Assembly: GCF_000376105.1 (NCBI RefSeq)
Contig: NZ_AQWM01000002.1
Coordinates: 124,001 to 188,000, forward strand
Direction: 5' to 3'
Length of the DNA stretch: 64,000 nt
Origin: Asticcacaulis benevestitus DSM 16100 = ATCC BAA-896
GTDB lineage: Bacteria > Pseudomonadota > Alphaproteobacteria > Caulobacterales > Caulobacteraceae
The notes under the pieces were generated by a model, which saw only the letters and a program-made list of their open reading frames with translations, did no database searches and was not told the origin of the DNA. The position numbers were made by a program, and so were the translations under genes. Shown here one piece after another: positions 6,656-35,363 of the stretch (position 1 is its first letter; the number at the start of each line of letters is the position of its first letter).

Positions 6656-6776
6656 GATACTTGAACCTTGAAGCTGCCCGCCCGCCTGAATGTTGTAAGC
6701 GGCCATTTGCCTTTAAAGCGCCCAAGGATTCAATGCACCTCAAAAGACATTACCCAAGGTTTCAGTAAAGCTTAAC

Positions 6777-13671: not shown

Positions 13672-14244
13672 TTACTGCCCCTTATATACGGTCTCTTCGC
13701 CCCACCAGTTACCCTCGTGCGGAAATTTTTTGCGGAAATCCGCCCAGTGCGCCGCCGACAGCTCGAAAATATGCAGGTCATGGCGCACGCCATCCTTCAG
13801 GGCGTGATCCTTCAACACACCGACATGGCGATAGCCGTTAAACTGCTGAAGTCGCAGGGTGCGCTCATTCCAGGCCACGACATGGTTGACGATCTTGTGC
13901 AGCCCCATGGTGAAGAAGGCATGGTTGAGGGTGCCAACGAAATTATAGATGGTCAGTTCTTTGGGCGCGGAAGCTTCCCCAATATAGACGCCGAGTTCAC
14001 CTACACCGGAAACCCGGTCGGTGACGGTAATCGACGCGTAGCCGACGTCGCGGCCTTCGATCCGGATGATACAGTGCTGATAATCGTCACGCGTGTTGCA
14101 GCGCTCGATCCAGGCTTTCTGGCGCTCGATATCGTAGGGCACATCGGTCAGCATATATTGCGTGATATGCGGCGCGGTGCGCCAGTCGAGCAGCATCTGG
14201 GCGTCATCGGGTGTGATACGGCGGTAGCTGAGAAAACTATACAT
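13672..14244 (-). CDS. pseH: PseH-like N-acetyltransferase (GNAT) of pseudaminic acid synthesis
   Basis: This GNAT-fold enzyme of 190 residues would N-acylate UDP-4-amino-4,6-dideoxy-AltNAc in the pseudaminic acid pathway. It starts at MYSFLSYRRITPDD; the reading frame extends upstream only as an antisense-like tail inside pseG. The PseH-like N-terminus with LLDWRTAPHITQYMLTDV and the acyl-CoA region GVGELGVYIGEAS are visible, followed by GLHKIVNHVVAWNERTLRLQQFNGY. The start overlaps the pseG stop by eight bases, so translation is probably coupled. It is the last gene of a long operon of acyl-group enzymes, which raises the possibility that the acyl donor is not plain acetyl-CoA (inference). 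Confidence 0.85.
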   Translation of the reverse strand: MYSFLSYRRITPDDAQMLLDWRTAPHITQYMLTDVPYDIERQKAWIERCNTRDDYQHCIIRIEGRDVGYASITVTDRVSGVGELGVYIGEASAPKELTIYNFVGTLNHAFFTMGLHKIVNHVVAWNERTLRLQQFNGYRHVGVLKDHALKDGVRHDLHIFELSAAHWADFRKKFPHEGNWWGEETVYKGQ

Positions 14245-15226
14245 GGCGCAAGGCCTCCACAATTCGGCGCGGCCCTTCACCATCGACCACGGCATGAGCG
14301 ATACGGGCGATCTCGGCCAGACGCGCCGGGTCATCCAGCAGCGCCTTGACCTGCGCACCGAGATCATTGGGCAGTCCGCCGCGCGCATCGATCACCGGAT
14401 AGGGGCAGGCCTTGAGCGCCGCCGCCTGATTGTCATAGACCACCAGAACCAGCGCCGGCAGGCCCATGGCCGCCACCTCGCCGACACTCCCCCCTGCCGC
14501 CGTGATCACCAAGGCGCTGCCGGCCAAAACTCTTGCTACACTTGGGGGAGAGGCGTATAGGCGATAATGTTCTAACTTTTGTTCTAATTTTGTTAGATCA
14601 TCTGTATGAACATTGGCAGGTCCCGCGACTGCCCTCACGTGGACACTTTCTATGTTTCCATAGATCCCTTCTACACAACGGCTTGTGAGCTGTGCAGGGT
14701 CGCTGCCGCCAAACATGATGGTAACGAATGGCGCGTCCGCGCTATCCGGAAAGGCTTCGGTGAACTCTTTGCGGATCAGGGCATAGTCAGGCCCAAGCCT
14801 TAGCCTTGCGCGTGTTTTTCGCTCGTAATCCGCCGGTTTCGCCGACTGCGCCGGATTGATCAGCAGGTCGCAATCGAAGCGTTCGAGCACATTGAGATCA
14901 TCCAGAACAGCTACCCGCACGGCCTGGCTTTGCAGGGCGATATAGTCCTCAGTAGCCGCATAGCTATCGATCAGCAGCCAATCCTTGCGCGTCAAATCCA
15001 GATCCGCGATGGCCATGAAATCGGCGGCGCTGCCCAGAGGACCATCGATGCGGACACCCTTGGCGCCGATCTCTTCCAGCCGCGCCATGGCCGCCTCACC
15101 CAGTTCATTGAGCAGGAAGGTGACCTCGATGCCTTGGGCCCGTGCTTCTTCGGCGATGGCGAAACAGCGCATGAAGTGACCAAGGCCGATCTGGGTCGAG
15201 GCTTCGGTGCGAATAAACAGCCGCAT
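14237..15226 (-). CDS. pseG: PseG, UDP-2,4-diacetamido-2,4,6-trideoxy-L-altrose hydrolase
   Basis: This 329-residue GT-B-like hydrolase removes UDP from the Pse precursor. It starts at MRLFIRTEASTQIGLGHFMRC, which contains the conserved G-x-GH-x-x-R motif with the catalytic His. FGGSDP and the C-terminal AAGGSVGEVAAMGLPALVLV form the nucleotide site. The ATG overlaps the stop of the preceding ketosynthase by one base (TGATG). The stretch coding for DDLTKLEQKLEHYRLYASPPSVARV, at about 14520-14620, uses A+T-rich codons unlike its neighbours. Function follows from the family and the neighbouring Pse genes. Confidence 0.9.
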   Translation of the reverse strand: MRLFIRTEASTQIGLGHFMRCFAIAEEARAQGIEVTFLLNELGEAAMARLEEIGAKGVRIDGPLGSAADFMAIADLDLTRKDWLLIDSYAATEDYIALQSQAVRVAVLDDLNVLERFDCDLLINPAQSAKPADYERKTRARLRLGPDYALIRKEFTEAFPDSADAPFVTIMFGGSDPAQLTSRCVEGIYGNIESVHVRAVAGPANVHTDDLTKLEQKLEHYRLYASPPSVARVLAGSALVITAAGGSVGEVAAMGLPALVLVVYDNQAAALKACPYPVIDARGGLPNDLGAQVKALLDDPARLAEIARIAHAVVDGEGPRRIVEALRHV

Positions 15227-16230
15227 CAGGCCACCCGGATGATATCGTGACAGAGCGGCGCCTCGGTTTGCCACACCGCCGTAGACCACGACCAGCCAAC
15301 GCCGAAACCGCACAACAGCAAGGTCAGCTGCGGGGCCGTGGCCACCTTGCTCAGGTGATCACACAATGCCAAAGGGATCGAGGTCGATGTGGTATTGCCG
15401 AAGTCACGTACGGCATAGACGAGTTGGTCCTCGCGCGCCTTGATCTTCTGGCCGAGCGTTTTCAGCATTATGGCGTTCGCCTGATGCAGCACCACATAGT
15501 CCATATCGCCAATGCTCTTGCCGGCCTCATGGAGCGCGCGTTCGATCGAAGGCGCCACCTGCTTGAGCGAGAACGCCATGACCTGTGTGCCGTCCATGAA
15601 GAGTTCCGGCGTGCCAGGTTCGGCCAGACCGCCGGTTTTTGAGATCAGATAGGGCGCGCCGGAACCATCGGAACCCAGGTCAAACGCGATCTGTCCGTGC
15701 TCGGAAAGCTCAAGCGCCGTCACCGCCACGGCGTCACCAAACAAAGGCGCCAGCGCACGATTCGACTCCGAAATCATATGCGAGGTAATATCGCCCGTCA
15801 CCAGAAGCGCGCGCCGGATGTTGCCGGACTGCATCATCGCATGGGCGACCGAAAGCCCGTAGACATAGCCGGAACACCCCAGGCTGATATCGAAAGCCGC
15901 TGTCGATTTGGCTAGTCCCAGCCTGTTTTGCAACAGGCTGGCGGTACCCGGCAGTGGATAATCGGGCGTTTGGGTCACCACGATCAGCAGACCGATGCTG
16001 TCAGGCGCCCAGCCCAGCCTTTCCAGCAGCACCACAGCCGCGGCCTCGCCCAACTGGCTGACCGTATGACGATCGGCGACCGGACGGCGCTCGATGCCCG
16101 TGGCGGCCATGATCTTGGCCATGGTTTCGGCGCCAAAACTGGCCGCCAAGTCGGCGTTCTCGCTGACAGCCTCCGGCATGGCGGTGACGATCCCACACAG
16201 TTTCGGGGCTCTGGCTGTGAAACTGACCAT
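15226..16230 (-). CDS. 3-oxoacyl-ACP synthase III-like ketosynthase (first)
   Basis: This 334-residue thiolase-fold enzyme is related to FabH. It would condense an acyl-CoA or acyl-ACP starter with malonyl-ACP, or transfer an acyl group. The Cys-His-Asn triad is intact: ISLGCSGYVYGLS (Cys119), VLHQANAIML (His, about 253) and DFGNTTSTSIPLAL (Asn, about 284). The tail CGFGVGWSWSTAVW is the usual FabH C-terminus. It overlaps both neighbours by one base, so it is an integral part of the operon. A second paralogue lies at 22053-23135. Housekeeping FabH is unlikely because plsX and the usual fab genes are absent; specialised acyl synthesis is inferred. Confidence 0.88.
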   Translation of the reverse strand: MVSFTARAPKLCGIVTAMPEAVSENADLAASFGAETMAKIMAATGIERRPVADRHTVSQLGEAAAVVLLERLGWAPDSIGLLIVVTQTPDYPLPGTASLLQNRLGLAKSTAAFDISLGCSGYVYGLSVAHAMMQSGNIRRALLVTGDITSHMISESNRALAPLFGDAVAVTALELSEHGQIAFDLGSDGSGAPYLISKTGGLAEPGTPELFMDGTQVMAFSLKQVAPSIERALHEAGKSIGDMDYVVLHQANAIMLKTLGQKIKAREDQLVYAVRDFGNTTSTSIPLALCDHLSKVATAPQLTLLLCGFGVGWSWSTAVWQTEAPLCHDIIRVA

Positions 16231-16976
16231 CAGGACGTGAGCCCCCCGTCAACCACCAGGGTTTGCCCTGTAATAAAGCCGGCATCTTCGGACAGCAGGA
16301 AGCGCACCAGATGAACGATATCGGCCAGCTCGCACAACCGGCCAAGCGGGGTGCGGCGGACGATCTGGTCGAGTTGCCGGTCGTCCAGACCTTCGGACAG
16401 CGCCGTCTTCATATAGCCCGGCGCCACCGAATTGACGGTGATGCCGATGCGCCCGACCTCACGCGACAAGGCGCGGGAAAATCCATCCAGTCCGGCCTTG
16501 GACGCCGCGTAGGCGCTCAGGCCCGTATAGCCGCGCAGGCCCGTGATCGAGGAAATATTGATGATGCGGCCGGGTTTGCGCGTCTTCATCATGCGCCGCA
16601 GGGCCGACCGCGCCAGACAGATCGCGCCGGTCAGATTGACCCGCAGGACGCGCTCTATGTCGCTGACCGGCAGGGTGGACAGGATGCCTTCGACCGACAT
16701 GCCGGCATTATTGACCACGCCCCACAGGCGCTGACCGTCAAAGGCCGCGACCGCGCTGCCGACAAAAGCCTCGATGGCGGCTGTATCGGCCATATCGACC
16801 GCCTGCCAGACGAACTTGCCCCCATGGACATCCTTCAGCGCCTGCAAATCCTCGCCAAAGGTGGTGCTGCAACCGGCCACACCATAGCCCTGCGCCAGCA
16901 GGTCGCGCGCTAGAGCCAGACCCAGCCCCCGGCTGACGCCGCTGACGATCAGCCATTTGTGCGGAACCTCATTCAT
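16230..16976 (-). CDS. SDR-family reductase, FabG-like (first)
   Basis: This 248-residue short-chain dehydrogenase has the cofactor motif GVSRGLG near residue 13, NNAGMSVEG near 90, the catalytic Ser in INISSITG and YAASK near 155, and the tail FITGQTLVVDGG. It is complete and probably NADPH-dependent. Next to ketosynthases and acyl carrier proteins, the likely job is 3-oxoacyl reduction to the 3-hydroxyacyl form. It overlaps the ketosynthase start by one base and the ligase stop by four bases. Confidence 0.88.
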   Translation of the reverse strand: MNEVPHKWLIVSGVSRGLGLALARDLLAQGYGVAGCSTTFGEDLQALKDVHGGKFVWQAVDMADTAAIEAFVGSAVAAFDGQRLWGVVNNAGMSVEGILSTLPVSDIERVLRVNLTGAICLARSALRRMMKTRKPGRIINISSITGLRGYTGLSAYAASKAGLDGFSRALSREVGRIGITVNSVAPGYMKTALSEGLDDRQLDQIVRRTPLGRLCELADIVHLVRFLLSEDAGFITGQTLVVDGGLTS

Positions 16977-18043
16977 ACGGACCTCGATTTCTTGCCGGTG
17001 GCGCCGATATCGAGCGCGTCGACATAGCGCAGGCTGACCGGACGCTGCGCACGCGGCAGCCCCTGCAAGTGTGCCTTGATTTGCGCTTCATCAAAACCGG
17101 AATCTGGCTTGAGCACGATATCCGCCACCAGCACATGGCCTGTGATGGGATTAGGCCTCGCGGAAACGCGCACATCTTGTATGGACGAAAGTTCTAACAG
17201 GTATGATTCCACCACTTCCGGATAGACCTTGACACCACCCACATTGACCATGGCGTCTCGACGTCCCCTGAAGAGAACACGATCTGGCGTCAGCTCGACC
17301 ATATCGCCGGTATCGAGCCCTTTCACTTTGAGCGTGCCCTCTCCGGTGACGGACAGCTCATCGTTCAGCCAGTCGCGGGGGAAACCTGCCAGGCCGTCCT
17401 GCACCGAAAAGACGGTGCCGGCCTCGGTCGTGGCGTAGATGTGGCGAAGGATCGCCTGCGGGAAGCGCGCTTTCACAGCATCCAGCAGGGTCTGATCGGC
17501 GGCCTCACCGCCCAGGGTCACGCTTTTGAGGGTCAGCGATCGGTCACCGAGCGCCATCAGGAAGGCGCGCCAGAAGGTCGGCGTTCCCGAAATATGCGTG
17601 GCCTGTTCCGCCACCGCCAGATCGGCCATATCGGCGATGCTGGCACCATGGCCCGGTGCGATCAGGACATGACCGCCGGCCATGGCGGTGAGGAGCACCT
17701 GAAGGCCGGCAAAACTCCCCGGATGAAAGGTCAGGAGCCAGCGCGCCCGGTCACCACCGGCCCTGATCCGTGCTTTCAGACGGTCGCGGCTATGCCCCAC
17801 CCATTTTGGCGCGCCGGTCGTACCGGACGTCTGCAGCCACACCTTATCCTCAGCGGCTTGTGGCAGCGGCACCGATGCGTCGCGCACCATGAAAACATCG
17901 CCGGTTCCCAGAAGCGCGGCGACCACACCCTTTACACCCGTTTTCGCCACCTCGACGACCGCCACGCCATCCGGACGTAAATCGTCGCTCGAAAGCGTAT
18001 GATCACCTTCGATCAGGGTGAAACCGGGGTTCAGGGCGTCCAT
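16973..18043 (-). CDS. AMP-forming acyl ligase (ANL superfamily), short form
   Basis: This 356-residue adenylating enzyme activates a carboxylic acid and passes it to CoA or a carrier protein. LQTSGTTGAPKWVGHS is the phosphate-binding loop, IYATTEAG the A5 motif, DTGDMVELTPDRVLFRGRRD the A7/A8 hinge, and GATGKKSRS holds the C-terminal lysine. It is shorter than most ANL enzymes (about 500), missing much of the usual N-terminal region. The chosen start, MDALNPGF, comes one base after the stop of the acyl carrier protein gene. The context suggests that it loads a starter acid onto that carrier protein (inference). Confidence 0.85.
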   Translation of the reverse strand: MDALNPGFTLIEGDHTLSSDDLRPDGVAVVEVAKTGVKGVVAALLGTGDVFMVRDASVPLPQAAEDKVWLQTSGTTGAPKWVGHSRDRLKARIRAGGDRARWLLTFHPGSFAGLQVLLTAMAGGHVLIAPGHGASIADMADLAVAEQATHISGTPTFWRAFLMALGDRSLTLKSVTLGGEAADQTLLDAVKARFPQAILRHIYATTEAGTVFSVQDGLAGFPRDWLNDELSVTGEGTLKVKGLDTGDMVELTPDRVLFRGRRDAMVNVGGVKVYPEVVESYLLELSSIQDVRVSARPNPITGHVLVADIVLKPDSGFDEAQIKAHLQGLPRAQRPVSLRYVDALDIGATGKKSRSV

Positions 18044-18044
18044 T

Positions 18045-18281
18045 TCAGCCGCCAAACAGGGCAGCAAGTTCCCCTGCCGTATGGAACAGCACAAAGCCGT
18101 TGGCGAAGGGCGTCAGGCCGGTTTTTTCTTCCAGAGTCACCACAAGCGTCGCCAGATCGAGGCTGTCGATATCATAGGGACCATTGAGAAGCGGCGTATC
18201 GGCGTTGATCTCGCCGGTCTGCGCGCCCTTATCATGCAGGAGCGTGCGAAGGTCTTCACGGATCATGTCGAGGGCAGTCAT
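18045..18281 (-). CDS. Acyl carrier protein (first)
   Basis: This 78-residue carrier starts at MTALDMIREDLRTLL. The phosphopantetheine site is Ser40 in YDIDSLDLATLVVTLEEKTG, and the acidic four-helix pattern fits. The ATG shares one base with the preceding hydrolase stop (TAATG), and the ligase starts one base after this gene. It differs clearly from housekeeping AcpP (DSLD context without the ELVMA stretch), so it is a dedicated carrier. A second one is at 23271. Confidence 0.88.
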   Translation of the reverse strand: MTALDMIREDLRTLLHDKGAQTGEINADTPLLNGPYDIDSLDLATLVVTLEEKTGLTPFANGFVLFHTAGELAALFGG

Positions 18282-19099
18282 TACGGCAAAAATTCCTTCA
18301 GGTGAGCGACAACGGTGGCAGAGGCCTCCATATGCGGCAGATGGCCCGCGCCTTTGATCAGGTGCAAGGGCGCAGATGTGGGCAGGCGATGCGCTTGTGG
18401 CATGGGGATCAAATGGTCGTGGTCGCCCCACATGATCTGAACCGGACACATCACGCGTTTCCAGTCAAAACCTTCGGGCGAAAGCGCCAGACCATAGGCC
18501 TTGGCGTTGCCGAGCAAAGCTTTCAACCCCTCACGACGCACCGGATCGGCCGCCGCATTTTGCAATGAGGCGGTCAGGGACGCGCCGAGATTTTGCCCGC
18601 GCGGCCCAAGCAACTGACGCGCCAGGGCTTCAGCATCGTCACCGCCCAAAAAGGCATCCAGCGCGTCTAGGTGGAAATTGCCGCCAAGCCCCGCCGGTGC
18701 GATCAGCGACAGCGATTTGACGCGCTCCGCGTGGCTCAAAACAAAACCGAGCGCGATCTTGGCGCCCATGGAATGGCCAACGATATGCGCGGACGCAATA
18801 TCGAGCACATCGAACGCCTCTTTCAACCAGCCGGTCATAAAGGCCAGCGACGCATCGCCGACATCGGGCGCGCCGCGGCCATGGCCCGGCAGATCCAGCG
18901 CGATCAGGCGGTATGTCGCGGCGAGCGGCACAAGGCACAGTTGCCAGGTCAGGAGGTCGGCGCCGAAACCATGGACAAAGACCACGGTTTCACCCTCCGG
19001 ATTGCCCATTTCGAGATAGCTGAGCGGTCCGTGGCTGTGCTTTTCCGACAGCGACAGACTGATTTTACGCGACGGCTTGATCGGCGCATGTGCGTTCAC
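18281..19099 (-). CDS. Alpha/beta hydrolase, possible thioesterase or acyltransferase
   Basis: This is a 272-residue alpha/beta hydrolase. The start is GTG in a GTGA overlap with the SDR stop; a longer open frame upstream is antisense-like read-through within the SDR gene. FVHGFGADLLTW is the oxyanion region, VGHSMGAK holds the nucleophile serine, WGDHDHLIP the aspartate and GAGHLPHME the histidine, so the triad is complete. It lies directly before the acyl carrier protein. A role in releasing or transferring the acyl chain from the carrier is inferred. Confidence 0.85.
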   Translation of the reverse strand: MNAHAPIKPSRKISLSLSEKHSHGPLSYLEMGNPEGETVVFVHGFGADLLTWQLCLVPLAATYRLIALDLPGHGRGAPDVGDASLAFMTGWLKEAFDVLDIASAHIVGHSMGAKIALGFVLSHAERVKSLSLIAPAGLGGNFHLDALDAFLGGDDAEALARQLLGPRGQNLGASLTASLQNAAADPVRREGLKALLGNAKAYGLALSPEGFDWKRVMCPVQIMWGDHDHLIPMPQAHRLPTSAPLHLIKGAGHLPHMEASATVVAHLKEFLP

Positions 19100-19854
19100 G
19101 CCAGAAATCCTCCGTCTACGGACAGAATCGAACCGGTGATCCAGCGCGAGGTATCGGCCAGCAGGAAAGCGATCGCGGCGGCGACATCGTCCGGCCTTCC
19201 GAGGCCAAGCGGGTGCATATCGACCACGCGTTTGAAATTCTCTTCCGAGAGGATGGTGCGAAACTGATCCGACATAGGCGTATCGACCATGGCCGGCGCC
19301 ACTGCGTTGACCCGCACGCCATCGCGCACCAGTTCGACGCCCAGTCCCTTGACCGCTGAAACGATGCCGCCCTTGGATGACGCATAGACCACATTGCCGG
19401 GCGCTGTGCGTAGCGCCGCCGAGGACGAGCAATAGACCAGCGAGGCCGGAGAACCGTGGCAGGCCTTGAGGCGGAAGGCCTGCGCCAACATCAGGGCCGC
19501 GCCGAGATTCTGCGTCAGGACGTCCATCACGAAGGCGGAGTTGATCGACTGGATCGGCTTGGTGGCCTGCACGCCGGCGCAATGGGCGATGCCGTTGAGC
19601 GGCCCGATGTCAGCGCACAAGGCTTTCAGCCACGGCACGATGGCATCAAGATCAGAGAGATCGAACAGACGGCCGATATGGCCATGACCTTCTAACGATG
19701 CCAATGTTTCGTCCAAGCGCGCCTGGTTGCGCCCCGAAGCCACGACGCGCGCGCCCAGCTTCGACAGATAGATGGCCGTCGCTTTGCCGATGCCGCTGGT
19801 GGCGCCGGTCACGAGGATGGTCCGGCCTTCGAGAGACATGGGATTAAATATCAT
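19096..19854 (-). CDS. SDR-family dehydrogenase/reductase (second)
   Basis: This 252-residue short-chain dehydrogenase has GATSGIGK near residue 17, HCAGVQ in place of the usual NNAG, YCSSSAA, YASSK near 158, and an ITGSILSVDGG tail. It is complete. It overlaps the Rieske gene upstream (ATGA type) and the hydrolase downstream by four bases each. It probably reduces or oxidises a keto or hydroxy acyl intermediate; the substrate is unknown. It is distinct in sequence from the first SDR, so two different redox steps are likely. Confidence 0.87.
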   Translation of the reverse strand: MIFNPMSLEGRTILVTGATSGIGKATAIYLSKLGARVVASGRNQARLDETLASLEGHGHIGRLFDLSDLDAIVPWLKALCADIGPLNGIAHCAGVQATKPIQSINSAFVMDVLTQNLGAALMLAQAFRLKACHGSPASLVYCSSSAALRTAPGNVVYASSKGGIVSAVKGLGVELVRDGVRVNAVAPAMVDTPMSDQFRTILSEENFKRVVDMHPLGLGRPDDVAAAIAFLLADTSRWITGSILSVDGGFLA

Positions 19855-20945
19855 ATCACGACCTCCATGCGCCTGGCATAGGCCTTCTGGAAATGAGCGA
19901 TACGGCCTTCCGGCTCACCCAACAGAGGCGGACGCTCAGTCGGCACATCCTGCACGCCGGCCTGTACCAAGGTACAGACACCGTGATCCTCGCCCATCAC
20001 ACGTTCGCTGAATTCGGCCAGGTTTCTGGCAATGATGTCCGTGGCAGCACCTGAACGGCTGTCCGCCATCCAATAGGTCGACTTGAAGCGAAAGCGTAAA
20101 GCCGAGACAGGCTCGAATGTCTGGAAAACAAAGGATGCGCCGTGCGTGGCCAGGATTACGATATTTGGAAAAATAACCCAGTTAACGCTTTTGGGAAAAC
20201 GGTCACTAACCTGCATATGCACCACGCGCGCCACGTGGTCCCACCACTTCTGCGTCTTTTGCGTCAGGCTGCGATAAAAGACCGTATGGTCCTCGATCGT
20301 TTCCACCAGCAAGTCGTCCTGAAGAGTCGGATCCAGGCTATCACGATGAATCATGCGGGTATGATACCCCTCGGCGGCATTCTCCATGCCTATCTTCCAA
20401 TTAACCTCCCATTCAAGGGTCGTTCGGCTGATTTGTTTCGGACAGACCTCAGTGAAATGCACCAGATCATCATAAATCCGGCCCAGGAAATCGCGTAAAC
20501 CAGGCCCACCAGGCTGCATGCGGACAAAGACGAAGCGACCGCACACCTCCAACTCATATGCGCTCAAAGCCAGTGCAGTGCGATCTTCCTCGCTCAACCC
20601 GAAAGCGGCGGCATTCTGGGGTATGCCATGGGGACGGCCCTCGGCATCATAGCTCCAGCCATGATAAGGGCATGTGAGCGGCCGGTTGCCGCATGGCTCC
20701 GTCTGGATACGCGAAAAACGATGCGAGCAGACATTGCGAAAAGCCTTCAGCACACCTTTGAAATTCTGCACGACAATGCTGTGTCCGGCGATTTCGCAAG
20801 TCACGAAGTCGCGGTCACTGGACAAGTCGTCAGTAAAGGCGACGCACAGCCACGATGGCTTAAAGATGCGTGCCATCTCTTCATTGAGAACATCATCGCG
20901 CCAGTAAGAGCTGGGCGGAATGTGACCAAGGCGCTGTTCATACAT
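19851..20945 (-). CDS. Rieske non-heme iron oxygenase, alpha subunit-like (A)
   Basis: This 364-residue oxygenase starts at MYEQRLGHIPPSSYW, overlapping the preceding Rieske gene by eight bases. The Rieske cluster ligands are CSHRF and CPYHGW (Cys-x-His and Cys-x2-His). The mononuclear iron site is in ENAAEGYHTRMIH, with His-x4-His and a glutamate where ring-hydroxylating dioxygenases carry aspartate; this resembles choline/carnitine monooxygenase-type enzymes. No reductase or ferredoxin is adjacent. It is a paralogue of the next gene. A stretch around 20140-20220 is noticeably A+T-rich. The substrate is unknown; hydroxylation or demethylation of the acyl or sugar group is inferred. Confidence 0.88.
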   Translation of the reverse strand: MYEQRLGHIPPSSYWRDDVLNEEMARIFKPSWLCVAFTDDLSSDRDFVTCEIAGHSIVVQNFKGVLKAFRNVCSHRFSRIQTEPCGNRPLTCPYHGWSYDAEGRPHGIPQNAAAFGLSEEDRTALALSAYELEVCGRFVFVRMQPGGPGLRDFLGRIYDDLVHFTEVCPKQISRTTLEWEVNWKIGMENAAEGYHTRMIHRDSLDPTLQDDLLVETIEDHTVFYRSLTQKTQKWWDHVARVVHMQVSDRFPKSVNWVIFPNIVILATHGASFVFQTFEPVSALRFRFKSTYWMADSRSGAATDIIARNLAEFSERVMGEDHGVCTLVQAGVQDVPTERPPLLGEPEGRIAHFQKAYARRMEVVI

Positions 20946-22053
20946 GCTGGGCCTCCATACGTTCGGCATATGCGGCCTGGAAATGACGCACCCTGTTATC
21001 GACCTCACCCAGAAATGGGGGGCGGTCTATACCTCGCTCAGCGACACCAGACTGCGCGATCTCGCAGATCTTCAGATCTTCGTCACGCACCCTGGCGCTA
21101 AAGGCATTCAACGATCCGATCACCAGCGGGCGCGCAGCTCCTGATCCAGCAGCCAGCCAACTTGAGGAATTCAACCGGAACCGCGAGGCGTTGATAGGGG
21201 TCAGGGTCTGGAAGGTGAATAGGGCGCCCGCAGTGAAAGTGGTGACGACATTAGGAAAGATCAGGAAGCTGACATAGTCCCTCTGGCGATCACTGAGCTC
21301 CAATCGCGCCTTGTCCGCTATCGTATCCCACCACCGCCGCGAACGCGCCGTCAGCGCGCCCTCGTGCGTACAGTGCGGCCCATAGACGTTCATTAGGATG
21401 TCCTGCTGCAGAACATTCGAGAAAGTGTCAGAATGCACAAGCGGGTGATGATAGGCCTCGATACCGTTTTCAACACCCAGCTTCCAGTTAGCCCCTACCT
21501 CGTAGCTGATCTGCTCGATCCGTTCGACGCAGATGTCCGATACGTGCGCCAAGGCCTCCCAGGCCTCGCCCAGAAACGCCTTCAGCGAAGGCCCTGGCGA
21601 ATTCATCCGCACAAAGACGAAATGGCCAACCGTGTCCATCTCATACGATTCCAGCGCCAGCGCAGCCCTGTCGGAATCAACGAGCCCGAAAGCCGTTTCG
21701 TTCTGCGGAATGCCCACCGGCCGCCCTTCGCCGTCGTAGCGCCAGCCGTGATAGGGGCAGGTCAGCGCCCGGTTACCGCAAGGCTCGGTTTGGAGACGTG
21801 AAAAGCGGTGCGAGCACACGTTGCGGAACGCTTTAAGCACGCCTTTGAAATTCTGCACGACAAGGCTGTGCGGGCCGACCTGGAAGGTTATGAAGTCGTT
21901 GTGATTTTGCAGGTCGTTAGCAAAGCCCACACATAGCCATGATGACTTGAAAATGTGATCCAGCTCAAGGCGCAACACGTCCGCATCCCCATAAGAGGCG
22001 GCTTGAATATATCCTGGGCGGCCCAGCGGCGACTTCATAGTGGAATCAGGCAT
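20938..22053 (-). CDS. Rieske non-heme iron oxygenase, alpha subunit-like (B)
   Basis: This 371-residue paralogue of the preceding entry shares VVQNFKGVLKAFRNVCSHRF almost exactly. Rieske ligands CSHRF and CPYHGW are intact, and the catalytic site is ENGIEAYHHPLVH. The start MPDSTMKSP overlaps the ketosynthase stop (ATGA). The C-terminal RPPFLGEVDNRVRHFQAAYAERME matches a corresponding tail in the other copy, so the pair arose by duplication and both were kept intact. The two may act on successive positions or form a mixed oligomer; neither can be decided from sequence. Confidence 0.88.
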   Translation of the reverse strand: MPDSTMKSPLGRPGYIQAASYGDADVLRLELDHIFKSSWLCVGFANDLQNHNDFITFQVGPHSLVVQNFKGVLKAFRNVCSHRFSRLQTEPCGNRALTCPYHGWRYDGEGRPVGIPQNETAFGLVDSDRAALALESYEMDTVGHFVFVRMNSPGPSLKAFLGEAWEALAHVSDICVERIEQISYEVGANWKLGVENGIEAYHHPLVHSDTFSNVLQQDILMNVYGPHCTHEGALTARSRRWWDTIADKARLELSDRQRDYVSFLIFPNVVTTFTAGALFTFQTLTPINASRFRLNSSSWLAAGSGAARPLVIGSLNAFSARVRDEDLKICEIAQSGVAERGIDRPPFLGEVDNRVRHFQAAYAERMEAQHV

Positions 22054-23135
22054 CAGGCCAGCTCGACGATCTGCGGGGCCGGCATGGGGCCGACGGTCAA
22101 CTTGATGGCGCTCCACGACCAGCCGACGCCGAAACCCATCATGATCAGGCTTTGCGGCTTGTCGAAAATCTGAGACAGTTTCGCAGCGATGGTCAGCGGA
22201 ATCGAGGCCGACGAGGTGTTGCCGAAGGTTTCCATGGCCACCGGCACCTTGTCTTCCGGCAGGCCGGATTTCTTGCGCAAATGGTTGAGCATGAAGACAT
22301 TGGCCTGATGGAAAAGGACGTAATCGACGTCTTCGATCGTCGTGCCTGACGTCTCAAAGATCGCTTTGACCAGGCCCGGCACGTTTTTCAGTGTGAAATT
22401 GAAAACCTCTGTGCCGTTAAGGTGCAGGCGCGACTTGCGGTACAGCTCCTCAAGTTTTTCAGGACTGTGCGGCTCTTTCGGCGGCAGCAATGGGTGCTTC
22501 AAACCACCCGCTTCGACCATGATATGCGCCGCACCGGAACCATCGGTGCCAAAGACACCGTACCAGTGAGAATTTGGCATATCGTCCGCCTGCGGATCAA
22601 TTTCCAGCGCCGTGGCCGAGCCGGCGTCACCAAACAGCGGAATGGTGCTACGGTCCCCTTCCAGCAGCTTCGAGGTGCTGACATCACCGGCCAGAACCAG
22701 AGCCCGCGCCGGACGTCCGGAGACTTTCAGGGTCTGCATAAGCGAGGCCGCCGTCCACAGGCCATAGGCATAGCCTGAACAGCCGAGATTGATATCGAAG
22801 GCGAGGCAGGAACCCAGCCCCAAGCGCGCCTGCAGGGCACAGGCGGTGGAGGGAATGACGAAATCGGCGCTTTGCGTCACCATGATCAGCACATCTATAC
22901 TGTCGCGCGCCCAGCCCAGTTCGTCGAGCAGGCCATCGGCCGCCTTCTGGCACAGATCTGAGGTCAGAATATCCGGGCGGGCGATATGACGGGAACGCAC
23001 ACCGATCGTGCCGATCAGGCGTTCGCGCTCCGCCTCGTCGGGGATCAGGTTTTCCTCGGCCAGGGTGCGCGTTTGCGCCGGCACGCAGGCACGTATGCCA
23101 CGTAAACTGACGCCTTTCAGAATTGCCTCGGTCAT
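22053..23135 (-). CDS. 3-oxoacyl-ACP synthase III-like ketosynthase (second)
   Basis: This 360-residue FabH-like enzyme is the first gene of the long minus-strand operon. The triad is intact: INLGCSGYAYGLW (Cys119), LFHQANVFMLNHL (His) and TFGNTSSASIPLTI (Asn), ending MGFGVGWSWSAIKL. It carries an insertion before the second half (GLKHPLLPPKEPHSPEKLEELYRK) compared with its paralogue at 15226-16230. The ATG faces the divergent acyl carrier protein gene across 135 bases, which should hold the promoters for both directions. Confidence 0.88.
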   Translation of the reverse strand: MTEAILKGVSLRGIRACVPAQTRTLAEENLIPDEAERERLIGTIGVRSRHIARPDILTSDLCQKAADGLLDELGWARDSIDVLIMVTQSADFVIPSTACALQARLGLGSCLAFDINLGCSGYAYGLWTAASLMQTLKVSGRPARALVLAGDVSTSKLLEGDRSTIPLFGDAGSATALEIDPQADDMPNSHWYGVFGTDGSGAAHIMVEAGGLKHPLLPPKEPHSPEKLEELYRKSRLHLNGTEVFNFTLKNVPGLVKAIFETSGTTIEDVDYVLFHQANVFMLNHLRKKSGLPEDKVPVAMETFGNTSSASIPLTIAAKLSQIFDKPQSLIMMGFGVGWSWSAIKLTVGPMPAPQIVELA

Positions 23136-23270
23136 GACCGCACCTCAATTACGCAACGCTTATTGGTGATTCGCTTGCGCGACCCCACCATAACACTTCG
23201 CATTAACCCTTTAAGGGAATATTGACGGAATCAGGATTTCACTGAAGCCTTACGTTTCCGGAGTACCCCC

Positions 23271-23492
23271 ATGGATAAGCCCGCCTTTTTCGCCGCCGTC
23301 GCCGAGATCCTCGAAGCCGATCCCGCCGGCCTTACCGGCGCTGAAACCATCAATGATATCGGCAACTGGGACAGCCTGTCGGTCATCTCGTTCGTCGCCA
23401 TGGTCGATAGCGATATGGACCAGATCGTTGATGCCGAAAAGCTGAAGGACGCTAAGACCCTGAACGACCTGGCGGCGCTCGTCGGCCTGTAG
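23271..23492 (+). CDS. Acyl carrier protein (second)
   Basis: This 73-residue carrier protein has its phosphopantetheine serine at residue 35 in GNWDSLSVISFVAMVD. A GGAG ribosome site precedes the ATG. It begins the plus-strand arm of the cluster, 15 bases before the PhyH-type dioxygenase, and is divergent from the ketosynthase operon. The NWDSLS context is that of specialised carriers in sugar-acylation and secondary-metabolism loci rather than AcpP. Confidence 0.87.
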   Translation: MDKPAFFAAVAEILEADPAGLTGAETINDIGNWDSLSVISFVAMVDSDMDQIVDAEKLKDAKTLNDLAALVGL

Positions 23493-23507
23493 AAAGTCGG
23501 GCCTGTC

Positions 23508-24428
23508 ATGGTTTCGTTAACCGAGCGCCTGAAGACACGCGTGCCTACCTGGCAGCGCTTCTTTCAGCGCGCCCGCGAAGACGCCCGCAACCCGGCCTAT
23601 GACCTGCTGCCGGTGCTGGGGCTCGATCAGCGCAACGGCTTCTCCCGCACACTTGCGGCCTTTTCGCCCAAAACGCCGGGCTTGAGGCCAACCGACGCTC
23701 AGGCGATCCTGCATGACCAGTTGCGCCACGACGGCCTTACGGGTTTGCAACCGCCCCTGCCGGCCGGCGTGCTCAGCGATCTTGTCAGCTATTTCAAGGC
23801 TACCCCGTGCCACGATCCCTATCGCCCGCACCTTGGTCTTTTCGACTGGAATCAGCCGCCGTCTGATGAGATCAATATCGGTTATTATACCTGGGAAGAG
23901 GTGCTGCGCGCACCGCATATGCTCGACCTGATGAATAGTCCGGATATTCTGGCCGTGGCCGAGGCCTATCTCGGCTGCAAGCCGGTAATCGACAATATCG
24001 GGGCCGCCTGGGGCTATCCCGGCCGCAACACCGCCAAGGGCGTCCAGCGCTTTCACCGCGATTACGACTGTTCGCGCTGTTTCAAGGCTTTCTACTATCT
24101 GACCGATATCGACGCGACGTCCGGCCCGCACACATACGTCAGGGGTTCGCATCAGGATCGCCGGCTGGAAAGTGGCAAGGCCCAGACCGACGACGCCATC
24201 ATCGAGGCCTTCGGCGCGGACGCCATCGAGACCATCACTGCGCCGGCCGGTTCGTGGTTCCTTGAGGATGTCTATGGCTTCCATAAAGGGCAGTTGCCGG
24301 CGGACAAGCCGCGCCTGCTGCTGGCGATCGAGTATAATCTCTACCCGTCGCCGCTGTCGCCCAAACAGCCGCTGATGGAACGCCTGCCGCAGCACGACCC
24401 CTATATCAACAAGCTCTTCCTGAAATGA
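23508..24428 (+). CDS. PhyH-family Fe(II)/2-oxoglutarate dioxygenase
   Basis: This 306-residue oxygenase belongs to the phytanoyl-CoA dioxygenase family. The iron motif is His-x-Asp in RFHRDYDCSRCFKAFYYL, with the distal His in GFHKGQL and the 2-oxoglutarate-binding Arg probably in KPRLLLAIEY. The aspartate is present, so hydroxylation rather than halogenation is expected. SGPHTYVRGSHQ is the typical family loop. It sits 15 bases after an acyl carrier gene, so a carrier-bound acyl substrate is a reasonable inference. An inverted repeat CTGAAATGAG/CTCATTTCAG (24420-24457) covers the stop and may terminate part of the transcript. Confidence 0.85.
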   Translation: MVSLTERLKTRVPTWQRFFQRAREDARNPAYDLLPVLGLDQRNGFSRTLAAFSPKTPGLRPTDAQAILHDQLRHDGLTGLQPPLPAGVLSDLVSYFKATPCHDPYRPHLGLFDWNQPPSDEINIGYYTWEEVLRAPHMLDLMNSPDILAVAEAYLGCKPVIDNIGAAWGYPGRNTAKGVQRFHRDYDCSRCFKAFYYLTDIDATSGPHTYVRGSHQDRRLESGKAQTDDAIIEAFGADAIETITAPAGSWFLEDVYGFHKGQLPADKPRLLLAIEYNLYPSPLSPKQPLMERLPQHDPYINKLFLK

Positions 24429-24471
24429 GACTTTTATGAAGAATAACCTCATTTCAGTTTCCTGCTTGGTC

Positions 24472-24516
24472 GCGCACTTTATCCGAAAAGTGGCGGCACC
24501 TTGTCGGATTGCGCTT
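24472..24516. repeat. Short palindromic repeat directly before pseF
   Basis: GCGCACTTTATCCGAAAAGTG is followed by an imperfect inverse, ending TCGGATTGCGCTT. The same design occurs at 48725-48770 before rsfS, and its core matches the first hairpin of repeat family A. It ends two bases before the pseF ATG. Confidence 0.7.
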
Positions 24517-24518
24517 GT

Positions 24519-25205
24519 ATGAAACGGGTCGCCATCATCCCCGCCCGCGGCGGCTCAAAACGTATTCCGCGCAAGAACATCAAGCCATTTTTCGGCCAGC
24601 CGATGATCGGCTATTCCATCCGCGCGGCGCAAGAGTCCGGCCTGTTCGACAGCATCATTGTCTCGACCGATGACGAGGAAATCGCTGATGTGGCGCGGTC
24701 CTTCGGCGCCGATATCCCCTTCATGCGCCCGGCCGATCTCGCCAATGATCATGCCGGCACCGGCGCGGTCGTCGTCCATGCGCTCCAATGGTTCTCTCAG
24801 CACGGCATGGCCTATGACGCCGCCTGCTGCATCTACGCCACCGCCCCGCTGCTCGATCCCGAACGCCTGAAAGAAGGCTGGGACAGATTGCAGGGCAAGC
24901 GCTTCGCCTTTTCCGTCACCTCGTACGCCTTTCCGATCCAGCGCGCCCTGAAAAAGACAGCCGATGGCAGCGTCGATATGTTCTGGCCGGAAAACCTGAC
25001 CAAACGTTCACAGGATCTGGAACCCGCCTATCATGATGCCGCACAGTTCTACTGGGGCTGGAGCGACGCCTGGGTGAACGGTGAAACCGCCTTCTCCCCC
25101 ATCTCCGCGCCGGTCATCCTGCCGCGTACTCAGGTGGTCGATATCGATACGCCCGAAGACTGGGAGGTCGCGGAAGTGACTTACCGCGTGCTGAAAGGTG
25201 GTTAG
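24519..25205 (+). CDS. pseF: Pseudaminic acid cytidylyltransferase PseF
   Basis: This 228-residue nucleotidyltransferase activates pseudaminic acid to CMP-Pse using CTP. It starts at MKRVAIIPARGGSKRIPRKN, the conserved CTP-binding motif; six extra upstream residues would lie inside a repeat. STDDEEIADVARSFGAD, FMRPADLANDHAGT, YATAPLLDP, and VVDIDTPEDW near the C-terminus are typical of PseF/NeuA enzymes. AAQFYWGWSDAW is PseF-like. It is the last gene of the plus-strand arm, and a repeat starts immediately after its stop. Confidence 0.92.
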   Translation: MKRVAIIPARGGSKRIPRKNIKPFFGQPMIGYSIRAAQESGLFDSIIVSTDDEEIADVARSFGADIPFMRPADLANDHAGTGAVVVHALQWFSQHGMAYDAACCIYATAPLLDPERLKEGWDRLQGKRFAFSVTSYAFPIQRALKKTADGSVDMFWPENLTKRSQDLEPAYHDAAQFYWGWSDAWVNGETAFSPISAPVILPRTQVVDIDTPEDWEVAEVTYRVLKGG

Positions 25206-27992: not shown

Positions 27993-29045
27993 CTAAAGAG
28001 AGATCATGTCGTCGGCGAGCGGCTCACCGCGCATCAGGTCACGGCTGGCCGCCTTGCCGACCACGTCCCACAGGCGTGAGGGCGGCAGCCCGAGGCCGGG
28101 CCGGATCGAGCGTATATTGTCCTTGGTCAGCGCCTCGCCGGCCTTGACGTCCTTCACCACATAGAGCGAGCGCCGGAAGGTTTTCGAACCCTGCTCGGTG
28201 CCGAGCGTCTCATAATGGACGCGACCCAGCGCCCGCCAGGCGTCCTTGCAGTCACGCACCAGCGCCGCGAACTCGGCAGGTTCCAGCGAAAAGCCGGAAT
28301 CAGGACCGCCGTCCGCGCGGGCGAGGGTAAAGTGCTTTTCGATCACACAGCCGCCCACCGCCACCGACGCCACGCTGGCCGCCGTGCCGAAAGTATGGTC
28401 GGACAGACCCGAGACGCAGCCGAACTTGCGGCCAAGATCGGGCACGGTGCGGACATTGGCGTCAGCGATATTGGCCGGATATTCCGATACACAATGCAAC
28501 AAGATGATCTCGCCGGTGCCGAACTTGCGCGCGGTCTGGACCGCCGCATCGATCTCACGCGCATTGGCCATGCCTGTCGACATGATCATGGGCTTGCCCT
28601 GTTGCGCCACGTAAGCGACGAGCGGCAGATCAACCAGTTCGAACGAGGCAATCTTGTAGGCCGGCGCCTCAAGCCCCGCCAGCAGATCAACCGCTGTTTC
28701 ATCGAAGGGCGATGAAAACATCGTCACGCCGTGTTTTTTAGCCCGCTCGAACAGCGCCGGATGCCAGTCCCACGGTGTGTGGGCTTCCTCATACAGTTCG
28801 TAAAGCGAACGGCCGTCCCACGGGCCGCCATGAAGATAAAACTCCGGCCGGTCAGAATCCAGGGTGATGGTGTCAGCGGTATAGGTCTGGAGCTTGATGG
28901 CGTCACAGCCGGTCTCGGCCGCCGCATCGATCATTTTCAGGGCGCGATCGAGCGAGCCGTTGTGATTGCCGGAGAGTTCGCAAATGATATAGGGCTCATG
29001 ATCGGCGCCGATCTTGCGGCCATCAATAACAACTTCCAGACTCAT
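27993..29045 (-). CDS. pseI: Pseudaminic acid synthase PseI
   Basis: This 350-residue enzyme condenses 2,4-diacetamido-2,4,6-trideoxy-L-altrose with phosphoenolpyruvate. It has the NeuB TIM-barrel (ICELSGNHNGSLDRALKMI, IKLQTYTADTITLD, SSPFDETAVDLL, LHCVSEYPA, LSDHTFG, EKHFTL) and a C-terminal SAF antifreeze-like domain (RRSLYVVKDVKAGEALTKDNI). The insertion GGPWDGRSLYELYEEAHTPWDWH is specific to PseI rather than NeuB. The ATG overlaps the pseC stop by four bases, so the two are coupled. Confidence 0.94.
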   Translation of the reverse strand: MSLEVVIDGRKIGADHEPYIICELSGNHNGSLDRALKMIDAAAETGCDAIKLQTYTADTITLDSDRPEFYLHGGPWDGRSLYELYEEAHTPWDWHPALFERAKKHGVTMFSSPFDETAVDLLAGLEAPAYKIASFELVDLPLVAYVAQQGKPMIMSTGMANAREIDAAVQTARKFGTGEIILLHCVSEYPANIADANVRTVPDLGRKFGCVSGLSDHTFGTAASVASVAVGGCVIEKHFTLARADGGPDSGFSLEPAEFAALVRDCKDAWRALGRVHYETLGTEQGSKTFRRSLYVVKDVKAGEALTKDNIRSIRPGLGLPPSRLWDVVGKAASRDLMRGEPLADDMISL

Positions 29046-30229
29046 CCCAGCACCTCACGCAACGCCTCAATGACCCGCGCCGGGTCATCATCGCTCATGT
29101 CAGCATAAAGCGGTAAAGAGAGTGTGTTTTGATAGAAACAATCAGCGCCTGGCAGCGCACGCTGCGCCAGCGCATGGGTCTGCCACCACGGCTGGCGATG
29201 CACCGGAATGTAGTGCACCTGGGTGCCGATGCCGCGTTCGCGTAAACCAGACATGACGGCCGCGCGCGTGGTGCCGAGACCCGCGAAATCGATGTTCACC
29301 GCGAAAAGATGGAACACCGCATCATGCTCCGAAGACTTCCAGTTTACCGGAATGTTCGTTTCTTCCAGTGCGGCTTGATAGGCCCTGACCAGGGTTTTGC
29401 GGCGGCCTGCGAAGTCCGGCAAACGCTGCAATTGCGACAGGCCGAGCGCACAATTCAGGTCCGGCAAACGATAGTTATAACCAAGGCATTGCTGCTCATA
29501 GACCCACGGGCCGGTATCGCCTTCGCCGTCATAACGCAGACCTACGAAATGCACCGGATCGCGCTCGATTCCGTGTGAACGCAAGGCGCGCAGGCGTTTC
29601 GCCAGCACCGGATCATGGGTGGTGATCGCCCCGCCCTCGCCGGTGGTCAGGGTCTTGACGGGGTGGAATGAAAAGCAGGCCATGTTGGAGGCCTGACAAC
29701 TGCCGACAGCCCCTTGCGGCCCCACCGTGCCGATGGCGTGGCAGGCGTCTTCGATAACGAACGAACCGCGCGCGCCGCATACGTCATGAATATGAGAAAG
29801 ATCGACGGGCCGGCCGGCATAATGAACCGGAATGACCCCACCGAGACGATAACCATGATGGTCGCGCTCCAGGATTTTAAGCGCATCATCGAAGCTTTCA
29901 TCGGTGATCAGGCCGGTGACCGGATCGACATCGGCGAAGATCACCGGCGCACCGCAGTAGGCGACACAATTGGCCGAGGCGGCGAAAGTGATGGCCGGCA
30001 CGATCACCGCGCAGCGCGCCGACAGTTCCTCGGTCATGACCGCCAGATGCAGGGCCGCCGTGCCATTGGCAACCACCACGGCCTCCTTGGCGCCCACGGC
30101 ATCGGCCAGCGCCTTTTCGAAGCGCTCGACCAGAGGGCCGGTGGTCAGGAAATCGGAGCGCAGAGCCGCCACGACCGCCTCAATATCGGCCTCGCTGATC
30201 GACTGGCGGCCATAGGGAAGAAAGGTCAT
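29042..30229 (-). CDS. pseC: UDP-4-keto-6-deoxy-AltNAc aminotransferase PseC
   Basis: This 395-residue PLP aminotransferase performs the second step of pseudaminic acid synthesis. It starts at MTFLPYGRQSISEADIEAVV, the usual PseC N-terminus. VVANGTAALHLAV is the cofactor loop, IEDACHAIGT holds the PLP aspartate and SFHPVKTLTTGEGGA the Schiff-base lysine. GYNYRLPDLNCALGLSQL follows. The stop overlaps pseI. Upstream, 184 bases separate it from pseB, almost entirely filled by a large inverted repeat, so pseB and pseC may not be translated equally. Confidence 0.94.
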   Translation of the reverse strand: MTFLPYGRQSISEADIEAVVAALRSDFLTTGPLVERFEKALADAVGAKEAVVVANGTAALHLAVMTEELSARCAVIVPAITFAASANCVAYCGAPVIFADVDPVTGLITDESFDDALKILERDHHGYRLGGVIPVHYAGRPVDLSHIHDVCGARGSFVIEDACHAIGTVGPQGAVGSCQASNMACFSFHPVKTLTTGEGGAITTHDPVLAKRLRALRSHGIERDPVHFVGLRYDGEGDTGPWVYEQQCLGYNYRLPDLNCALGLSQLQRLPDFAGRRKTLVRAYQAALEETNIPVNWKSSEHDAVFHLFAVNIDFAGLGTTRAAVMSGLRERGIGTQVHYIPVHRQPWWQTHALAQRALPGADCFYQNTLSLPLYADMSDDDPARVIEALREVLG

Positions 30230-31466: not shown

Positions 31467-31530
31467 CTGGCGCCTTGATACTGACATCCGGACGCGATCC
31501 GTCCGTGGCCGGCAGTTTGCCCGTGTGCGG

Positions 31531-35134: not shown

Positions 35135-35363
35135 CCCAAACCTGCGACCCTCACCCATACTCGAAACAACCCGTATCCGCCTTAGCAGCACAAAACACCG
35201 CGCCCTCATCACGAGTCGCGTTACACCTCCTGCGGTCATAACCGAGTTTGTTGCAAAAATCATCCCCTGAGCGAAGGTTAATCGGGGTTGTGGGATTTTA
35301 GTTGCTCTTGTCGGCCAAGGGCTGGCAGCTTATGAAGGCGCAACCCTTTCAAGAGTGCCTGAC

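Follow-up and report, generated by a model that had tools for sequence, protein, structure and literature searches.

The window analyzed here, a stretch of 64,000 nucleotides of Asticcacaulis benevestitus DSM 16100 = ATCC BAA-896 (contig NZ_AQWM01000002.1, positions 124,001 to 188,000), carries a gene cluster in which genes of pseudaminic acid biosynthesis are joined to genes for carrier-bound acyl chemistry and to oxygenase genes (Table 1). Eleven minus-strand genes form one operon in the order KS1 (FabH-like ketosynthase), RO1 and RO2 (Rieske oxygenases), SDR1 (short-chain dehydrogenase/reductase), an α/β-hydrolase, ACP1 (acyl carrier protein), a short AMP-forming ligase, SDR2, KS2, pseG and pseH; with the starts chosen, nine of the ten junctions overlap by 1–8 nt and the tenth is a 1-nt gap. 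A divergent plus-strand arm, separated from the operon by 135 bp, consists of ACP2, a PhyH-type Fe(II)/2-oxoglutarate (2OG) oxygenase and pseF. The pathway set pseB, pseC, pseH, pseG, pseI and pseF is complete within the window, five of its products exceeding their NCBIfam cut-offs and pseH being assigned by its PseH-like score, fold and position. An earlier reading, made from the letters alone (the sequence-only reading), had claimed pseG, pseH, two FabH-like ketosynthases, two Rieske oxygenases, two SDRs, a hydrolase, a ligase and one carrier protein in a tightly overlapping minus-strand operon, with a second carrier protein, a PhyH dioxygenase and pseF on a divergent arm; all these genes are present and the junctions are tight, and the order it assumed for the source, Caulobacterales, agrees with the genus. 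The start it gave for the cluster, 14237, takes in pseG but leaves pseH almost wholly outside. We propose that the cluster is probably an accessory module of the pseudaminic acid pathway, by which the usual N-acetyl group introduced at the PseH step would be swapped for a custom-made, oxygenated acyl group.

Table 1 Features of the cluster and of the nearby pse genes (window coordinates; "." in the strand column, no strand)
Feature	Position	Strand	Basis
Module-type PseH (GNAT N-acyltransferase)	13672..14244	-	TIGR03585 62.5 bits, below cut-off 93.1; separate tree group; structure model
pseG, UDP-sugar hydrolase	14237..15226	-	TIGR03590 174.6 bits, cut-off 153.55
KS2, FabH-like ketosynthase	15226..16230	-	ACP_syn_III / ACP_syn_III_C; C119-H249-N279
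SDR2, 3-oxoacyl-ACP-reductase-like	16230..16976	-	TIGR01830 198.5 bits, below equivalog cut-off; S-Y-K
Short AMP-forming ligase	16973..18043	-	AMP-binding + AMP-binding_C on the reading from 18094; start 18043 or 18094
ACP1, carrier protein	18045..18281	-	PF00550 23.7 bits on a longer reading; DSL serine
α/β-hydrolase	18281..19099	-	Abhydrolase_1 79.2 bits
SDR1, core-module ketoreductase candidate	19096..19854	-	adh_short_C2 150.3 bits; S-Y-K
RO2, Rieske oxygenase	19851..20945	-	Rieske 60.7, Ring_hydroxyl_A 92.6 bits; cluster and iron ligands intact
RO1, Rieske oxygenase	20938..22053	-	Rieske 65.1, Ring_hydroxyl_A 91.3 bits; cluster and iron ligands intact
KS1, core-module FabH-like ketosynthase	22053..23135	-	ACP_syn_III_C 85.2 bits; Cys-His-Asn
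Exchanged segment, RO1-RO2 pair replacing a single Rieske gene	19938..22050	.	Drop of nucleotide identity versus sister locus
Divergent intergenic region, probable (predicted) promoters	23136..23270	.	Gap between KS1 and ACP2
ACP2, carrier protein, 73 aa	23271..23492	+	NF002150 E 0.001, 19.2 bits, below cut-off 66; DSL serine
PhyH-type Fe(II)/2OG oxygenase	23508..24428	+	PF05721 17.5 bits, below cut-off 22; H-x-D..H..R; Foldseek
pseF, CMP-pseudaminic acid synthetase	24501..25205	+	TIGR03584 329.3 bits, cut-off 205.7; true start may be further in
pseI, pseudaminic acid synthase	27993..29045	-	TIGR03586 509.3 bits, above cut-off
pseC, aminotransferase	29042..30229	-	TIGR03588 460.9 bits, above cut-off
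pseB, dehydratase	30414..31487	-	TIGR03589 515 bits, above cut-off

A Rieske protein of this kind (E ≤ 1e-40) occurs in 17 of 149 sampled genomes of the family, all 17 being among the 23 Asticcacaulis genomes, and 16 stretches of 10–20 kb around the other Asticcacaulis copies were compared. KS1, SDR1, ACP2 and pseF adjoin the Rieske gene in all 16, so that the gene set does recur beside pse genes in relatives, and pseG and pseH are found in 15, the sixteenth contig stopping before them. KS1 is present in 18 of 25 Asticcacaulis genomes, compared with 24 of 25 for PseI at ≥78% identity (the match in the remaining genome, G080, is 37% identical and may be another NeuB-type synthase), and the module would therefore be accessory to the pathway. 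In seven of the 16 stretches pseB, pseC and pseI are missing, pseI lying on the same contig at a distance of some 40 kb or more in four of these genomes (G109, G042, G029 and G141) and on another contig in three (G133, G104 and G145), while pseF stays with the module in all seven and pseG and pseH also do so in the six whose contig continues. This retention of pseF, pseG and pseH, while pseB, pseC and pseI separate, points to the PseH/PseG end of the pathway.

The catalytic residues of the acyl-building enzymes were checked over 37 loci, with counts referring to the loci that have a match for the gene concerned. The Cys-His-Asn triad of KS1 is kept in 34 of 35 loci, the Ser-Tyr-Lys residues of SDR1 in 36 of 36, the DSL serine in 24 of 24 for ACP2 and 14 of 14 for ACP1, and the hydrolase serine in 19 of 19, the residue at the Asp position of the last enzyme being variable; the corresponding figures for KS2 and SDR2 contain cross-matches to KS1 and SDR1, so they do not serve as gene counts. 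Both ketosynthases of the window possess the triad and both ACP_syn_III domains and score below the NCBIfam fabH cut-offs, and the ligase gave one weak match in the PDB. N-acyl groups besides acetyl are known on nonulosonic acids, and for amino sugars it has been proposed that groups of this sort are supplied by type-II-fatty-acid-like genes. By gene content, a β-ketoacyl-ACP synthase III (KASIII), a reductase, a carrier protein and a sugar N-acyltransferase together constitute a set of the VioS/VioR/ACP/VioB type, which was proposed to produce 3-hydroxybutyryl viosamine in Pseudomonas syringae pv. tabaci, where deletion of vioR is described as removing the modified flagellin sugar (PMC3927599). 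The viosamine island serves a flagellin amino sugar, but this sugar is dTDP-viosamine instead of pseudaminic acid, the acyltransferase is VioB instead of PseH, and its gene table lists neither a Rieske nor a PhyH protein. The genes wfpC–wfpG of Flavobacterium psychrophilum, proposed for a 3,5-dihydroxyhexanoyl group on Qui2NAc4N (PMC6519341), likewise comprise two ketosynthases, a carrier protein, a reductase and a PglD-type acyltransferase for a 4-amino sugar, differing in that the sugar belongs to an O-antigen; the main text of that paper never uses the word "dioxygenase". A nonulosonic acid with a 7-(3-hydroxybutyramido) group has been described (PMC3210612), and flagellar islands of Aeromonas and enterobacteria pair sugar genes with carrier protein, reductase and ligase genes (PMC7874193, PMC4875605). 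The Aeromonas Group II island, compared by gene description, combines pse genes with a carrier protein, a 3-oxoacyl-ACP reductase and an AMP-dependent synthetase, reminiscent of the second gene set here (ligase, ACP1, KS2 and SDR2), but contains luxE and luxC, and its description in PMC7874193 mentions no ketosynthase, Rieske or PhyH gene; the Shewanella flagellin pathway, as far as described in PMC3765264, is unlike that of this cluster. In the searchable literature, with subscription papers mostly outside the search, no oxygenase tied to the acyl-building step and no pairing of pseudaminic acid with a Rieske protein was found. Judged by such comparisons of genes, the new part is the Rieske and PhyH oxygenases together with the separate PseH, the acyl-building genes being already known from analogues.

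The PseH of the module differs from that of the canonical pathway, although the GNAT fold and the place in the pathway are shared. An Asticcacaulis PseH above the family cut-off occurs in 7 of the 25 genomes (131–165 bits), three of which are without KS1 (G089, G099 and G436) and four of which also have a module copy (G109, G133, G042 and G104). In contrast, the 18 module copies of the genus score 45–63 bits against the TIGR03585 cut-off of 93.1, and none reaches it. Two weak GNAT proteins of G436 (54.6 and 46.3 bits) were considered as module PseH and rejected, one having no match and the other being 25.8% identical. In a tree of 46 rows (L028, whose contig has no pseH, and several near-copies left out), 33 module rows are split from 13 others by one branch (94/89; 92% of bootstrap trees), a split that is good but not final, as long branches among the non-module rows drew a warning from the program. 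The module PseH is thus, by score and tree, a group apart from the ordinary PseH of the same genus. A profile of the module PseH was also run on 385 and 398 genomes outside the genus (overlapping samples); SDR1 is near in all eight stretches with matches of at least 185 bits, KS1 in six and a Rieske gene in six, compared with none of the three in any of the eight stretches (nine matches) at 101 bits or below, where weak matches to the ligase and SDR2 (L176), SDR2 (L175) and PhyH (L179) were seen. The AlphaFold2 model of the window's PseH (mean pLDDT 92.2) has the Helicobacter pylori enzyme (4ri1) as its second-best PDB match (20% identical, TM 0.78/0.83). At the place of the GNAT P-loop, the consensus is absent from all 33 module rows and present in 9 of the 13 others. 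This absence is a lead towards a carrier-protein donor and not proof of one, because H. pylori PseH binds acetyl-CoA, which it uses, with an atypical P-loop (PMC4964394); for the same reason, loss of the P-loop was set aside as proof. As a separate observation, four genomes (G085, G129, G052 and G080) have a PseI match, weak at 37% in G080, and neither KS1 nor any PseH at E 1e-10.

The linkage extends beyond the genus. The species-genome collection of GTDB was scanned with the Rieske alignment, and the results refer to the best 80 loci of a longer list, of which 24 score at least 155 bits against RO1/RO2 (9 Asticcacaulis, 2 Herbaspirillum, 8 Azospirillum, 1 Niveispirillum and 4 others, L052–L055). 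KS1 is found in 23 of these 24 and the module-type PseH in 20; among the other 56, a Nitrospirillum locus with a split Rieske match (L106) has both, one (L066) has a weak KS1 match of 73.6 bits, and 54 have neither. For the 15 best Rieske loci outside the genus, KS1 is present in 14 and the module-type PseH in 11, the other four having a PglD-like sugar N-acyltransferase. Fourteen of the 21 loci with PseH among the best 80 also hold pseF, pseG or pseI in the stretch, and the remaining seven, all Azospirillum, do not. In a genome-wide search covering 15 of 16 non-genus loci (L045 left out), PseI above its cut-off was present in all 11 tested genomes with the module and a module-type PseH, those seven included. 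Among 72,556 plasmid records, 15 match the Rieske profile and 16 the module PseH, the 15 common to both being Azospirillum records and the sixteenth PseH record a Paenibacillus plain pse cluster without the module. On plasmid p3 of A. brasilense Sp7 the annotated order is pseG, SDR, ketoacyl-ACP synthase III, a Rieske-type (SRPBCC) protein, SDR, GNAT, nucleotidyltransferase, a TPR protein, a glycosyltransferase and pseI, followed further on by hydrolase, carrier protein, ligase, SDR and ketoacyl-ACP synthase III; this is a rearranged module set that lacks PhyH, and the stretch contains neither pseB nor pseC. On plasmid pAB510f of Azospirillum sp. B510 (L187/L193), which is typed as mobilizable, module genes are dispersed among toxin–antitoxin genes, insertion sequence elements, a GT41 protein and a radical SAM/SPASM protein.

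It could be argued that the acyl-building genes supply some other lipid or polyketide, the adjacency to pse genes reflecting mere neighbourhood or shared regulation, inasmuch as FabH-like ketosynthases, carrier proteins and SDRs also serve unrelated products and pseH is the sole pathway gene in the stretch at the seven Azospirillum loci. We regard this as very improbable: linkage of the set to pseH persists, and in Herbaspirillum, A. brasilense Sp7 and G722, a member of another bacterial class, pseG and pseI accompany it as well in a changed gene order; the module genes form one coupled operon with pseG and pseH in the source strain; and the module PseH is a separate group. A chance neighbourhood was likewise rejected by the recurring linkage in the loci of the genus and of the GTDB scan.

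Most informative are the four loci without PseH. These loci, from Methylovorus (L052) and from metagenome-assembled genomes (MAGs) of Thiotrichales (L053), Cryomorphaceae (L054) and Legionellaceae (L055), keep the ketosynthase, SDR and Rieske genes with a hexapeptide acyltransferase alongside, PglD_N being above its cut-off in L052 and L054 and just under it in L053, with hexapeptide repeats only in L055; a DegT aminotransferase is present in L052, L053 and L055. PseI was not found at E 1e-20 in any of these four genomes, of which the three MAGs (L053–L055) may be incomplete. From the gene content of these loci, the module so appears to accompany the N-acyltransferase of whichever amino sugar is made. 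Homologous clusters regularly found apart from pse genes would count against the sequence-only reading, and such a separation is seen only in part: 20 of the 24 best Rieske loci have the module PseH, the stretch holding no further pse gene in seven of these, and four have another sugar N-acyltransferase. The comparison as a whole, with the module staying beside pseF, pseG and pseH, a PseH group of its own, and PseI in 11 of 11 genomes against 0 of 4, supports what that reading had suggested, namely that a carrier-bound hydroxylated acyl group may be assembled and transferred to pseudaminic acid, with PseH as a possible transferase.

Rieske oxygenases are known mainly from catabolism and natural products. 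RO1 and RO2 have the features of mononuclear-iron Rieske oxygenases (C-x-H/C-x2-H, a His-His-Asp iron site and a Ring_hydroxyl_A domain), and the residues that we take to be the cluster and iron ligands, C80, H82, C99, H102, H202, H207 and D326, are invariant in all 16 aligned proteins, both tandem copies included, with Glu at 199. The best-scoring near-full-length PDB match of the Rieske profile is carnitine monooxygenase CntA (6y8j, profile 11–338), salicylate 5-hydroxylase (7c8z) also matching over 9–342 with a lower score; CntA performs aliphatic oxidation. The PhyH assignment of the sequence-only reading holds by motif and fold, as H-x-D...H...R is kept in 19 of 19 loci with a match and the model resembles the Fe/2OG oxygenases SnoN, SnoK, GriE and proline hydroxylase H11 (Foldseek, TM 0.46–0.64); by family score, the window's copy stays below the PF05721 cut-off. 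Of four orthologues scanned against PF05721 (E 0.001, cut-off 22), one passes at 29.4 bits, one lies below at 20.9 and two have no match, and the protein gave no match among PDB sequences at E 0.1. PhyH is found in 12 of the 16 other Asticcacaulis loci; being patchy across module loci, it may therefore act elsewhere.

It is also conceivable that the carrier genes produce a plain 3-hydroxyacyl group and that the substrate of hydroxylation by the Rieske and PhyH proteins is instead the sugar, as UDP-sugar or as nonulosonic acid, since Rieske and Fe/2OG enzymes accept many substrates and PhyH is seen beside Rieske genes only in loci with the module-type PseH. However, the Rieske gene tracks KS1 and SDR1 and not one sugar, as seen in the four ketosynthase–SDR–Rieske loci with PglD-like acyltransferases, whose genomes gave no PseI match. 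The pairing of the module with PseH or a PglD-like enzyme according to the sugar favors a Rieske reaction on the acyl group over one on the sugar ring, and we consider hydroxylation of the sugar unlikely.

Within the module, the Rieske slot alone is exchanged between the source strain and its sister G137. Nucleotide identity in 150-nt windows is 93–99% on both flanks of the slot (18.3–19.8 and 22.05–23.55 kb) and 95.2% over 10.9–19.9 kb, whereas the slot itself is unalignable or 52–72% identical in windows with more than 90 aligned bases; KS1 and SDR1 are 99% and 98% identical between the two strains, compared with 51–53% for the Rieske proteins. In other close strain pairs (L034 left out, its start being wrongly chosen), Rieske identity tracks that of KS1. 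The single Rieske protein of G137 is 80–90% identical to those of L020, L021, L022 and L024, so that a lone Rieske gene is probably the older arrangement. RO1 and RO2 join inside the genus clade of the Rieske tree (91/90; eight pieces below 300 aa left out), both on long branches for which the program warns that the join may be false, and it looks as though a duplicated and diverged version had been introduced en bloc. The tandem arrangement, singled out by the sequence-only reading, is real in the source strain but was rejected as a general feature, a single gene being the usual form and only this one of the 17 Asticcacaulis genomes with a match having two. Outside the module, insertions between pseF and pseI also differ between the source strain and G137. 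Several further observations concern variation at these loci. Two Rieske genes lie close together also in L171 and L052, and loci of the Azospirillum type (L046 15514–17111; L047, L048, L050 and L166) have a second Rieske-like gene with two matching halves some hundred bases apart, possibly a longer variant. Between L020 and L021, KS1, SDR1, Rieske and PseH are 95–97% identical and pseG just 63%, and pseG may be a second exchanged gene.

In the predicted pathway, KS1 would condense a short acyl-CoA with malonyl on ACP2, and SDR1 would reduce the 3-oxo group to give 3-hydroxyacyl-ACP. Strains having the second set, the source strain included, might use a second starter or perform a second extension and reduction, leading for example to a 3,5-dihydroxyhexanoyl chain. 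The Rieske oxygenase(s), together with PhyH where present, would then hydroxylate the carrier-bound chain, and the module-type PseH would move the acyl group, from the carrier protein rather than from CoA, to the C4 amine of UDP-4-amino-4,6-dideoxy-AltNAc, after which PseG, PseI and PseF would yield CMP-pseudaminic acid with that acyl group on N7. Were this so, Rieske oxygenases would take part in surface-sugar synthesis, and two kinds of PseH would exist, users of acetyl-CoA and users of carrier proteins. Extending the proposal, we tentatively suggest, as a possibility held with less confidence, a widespread module in which an oxygenated acyl thioester, the product of carrier chemistry and of Rieske (and Fe/2OG) oxygenases, is loaded on a sugar 4-amine by a dedicated, ACP-dependent PseH group or by a PglD-type enzyme, with the oxygenase slot swapped as a cassette and the oxygen pattern resembling a serotype determinant. 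Such a module may be a hidden source of surface-sugar diversity, and the close natural strain pair differing at the Rieske slot makes the effect of the oxygenase testable by mass spectrometry.

Several findings weigh against the accessory-module proposal. Among stretches with the module PseH, L166 and L167 show no KS1, and L169 and L172, both near contig ends, show no Rieske gene; KS1 of L091 is just the 61-residue fragment that makes up the 35th locus of the residue check. Seven of the 20 top Rieske loci with PseH are without pseF, pseG and pseI in the stretch, PseI being elsewhere in those genomes. ACP1 and SDR2 (counted at matches above 200 bits) each occur in 8 of the 16 other Asticcacaulis loci and the ligase in 6, and these three genes, like KS2, vary in presence regardless of the core genes. 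PhyH is absent from 4 of the 16 Asticcacaulis loci, and none was seen in the four PglD-type loci. The donor assignment has the atypical P-loop of H. pylori PseH to reckon with, and no Rieske ferredoxin or reductase is among the annotated genes of the cluster, although no genome-wide search was made.

Flagellin is the better guess for the acceptor, and would likely receive the modified sugar. The source genome has six flagellin-domain matches, three of them together on contig C1, where two TPR proteins (L197 4772–8369 and 9520–12901) adjoin the three flagellin genes; the two show a 30–32% match to the C-terminal region of the TPR protein encoded in the A. brasilense module locus, and one matches that protein over 553 columns at 25%, TPR repeats included. 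A build of this kind is known from Caulobacter FlmG. Alternatively, the module may decorate pseudaminic acid on an O-antigen, a capsule or another polysaccharide, a reading that keeps some weight because a WecG/TagA/CpsF glycosyltransferase gene (31584–32348), also found in 6 of the 16 stretches of relatives, lies near pseB, and 3-hydroxyacylated nonulosonic acids have been described in O-antigens. Against it stand two points: the A. brasilense module locus encodes a TPR protein that weakly matches a glycosyltransferase and has relatives beside the flagellins of the source genome, and GT41 proteins occur in the B510 and Methylovorus loci. We regard a polysaccharide acceptor as doubtful. The preference for flagellin has its own difficulties: the flagellin genes are not adjacent to the cluster; the assignment of the TPR proteins as transferases is weak, the A. 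brasilense C-terminal part scoring 19.4 bits for PF01075 (glycosyltransferase-9, cut-off 22); and the flagellin glycan of A. brasilense Sp7 is described as a Rha/Gal/GlcNAc chain without pseudaminic acid (PMC3958885). The best source-genome match to that C-terminal part (50%) is on contig C17, beside a TPR-sulfotransferase (L198 1793–5021).

Of the remaining reading frames, a minus-strand one at 23231–23509 was rejected as a gene, having no family match and being antisense to ACP2. A DegT/DnrJ/EryC1 aminotransferase at 5495–6706 is a further possible amino-sugar gene, and a second kind of 2OG-Fe(II) oxygenase (DIOX_N) is located at 35355–36317, apart from the cluster.

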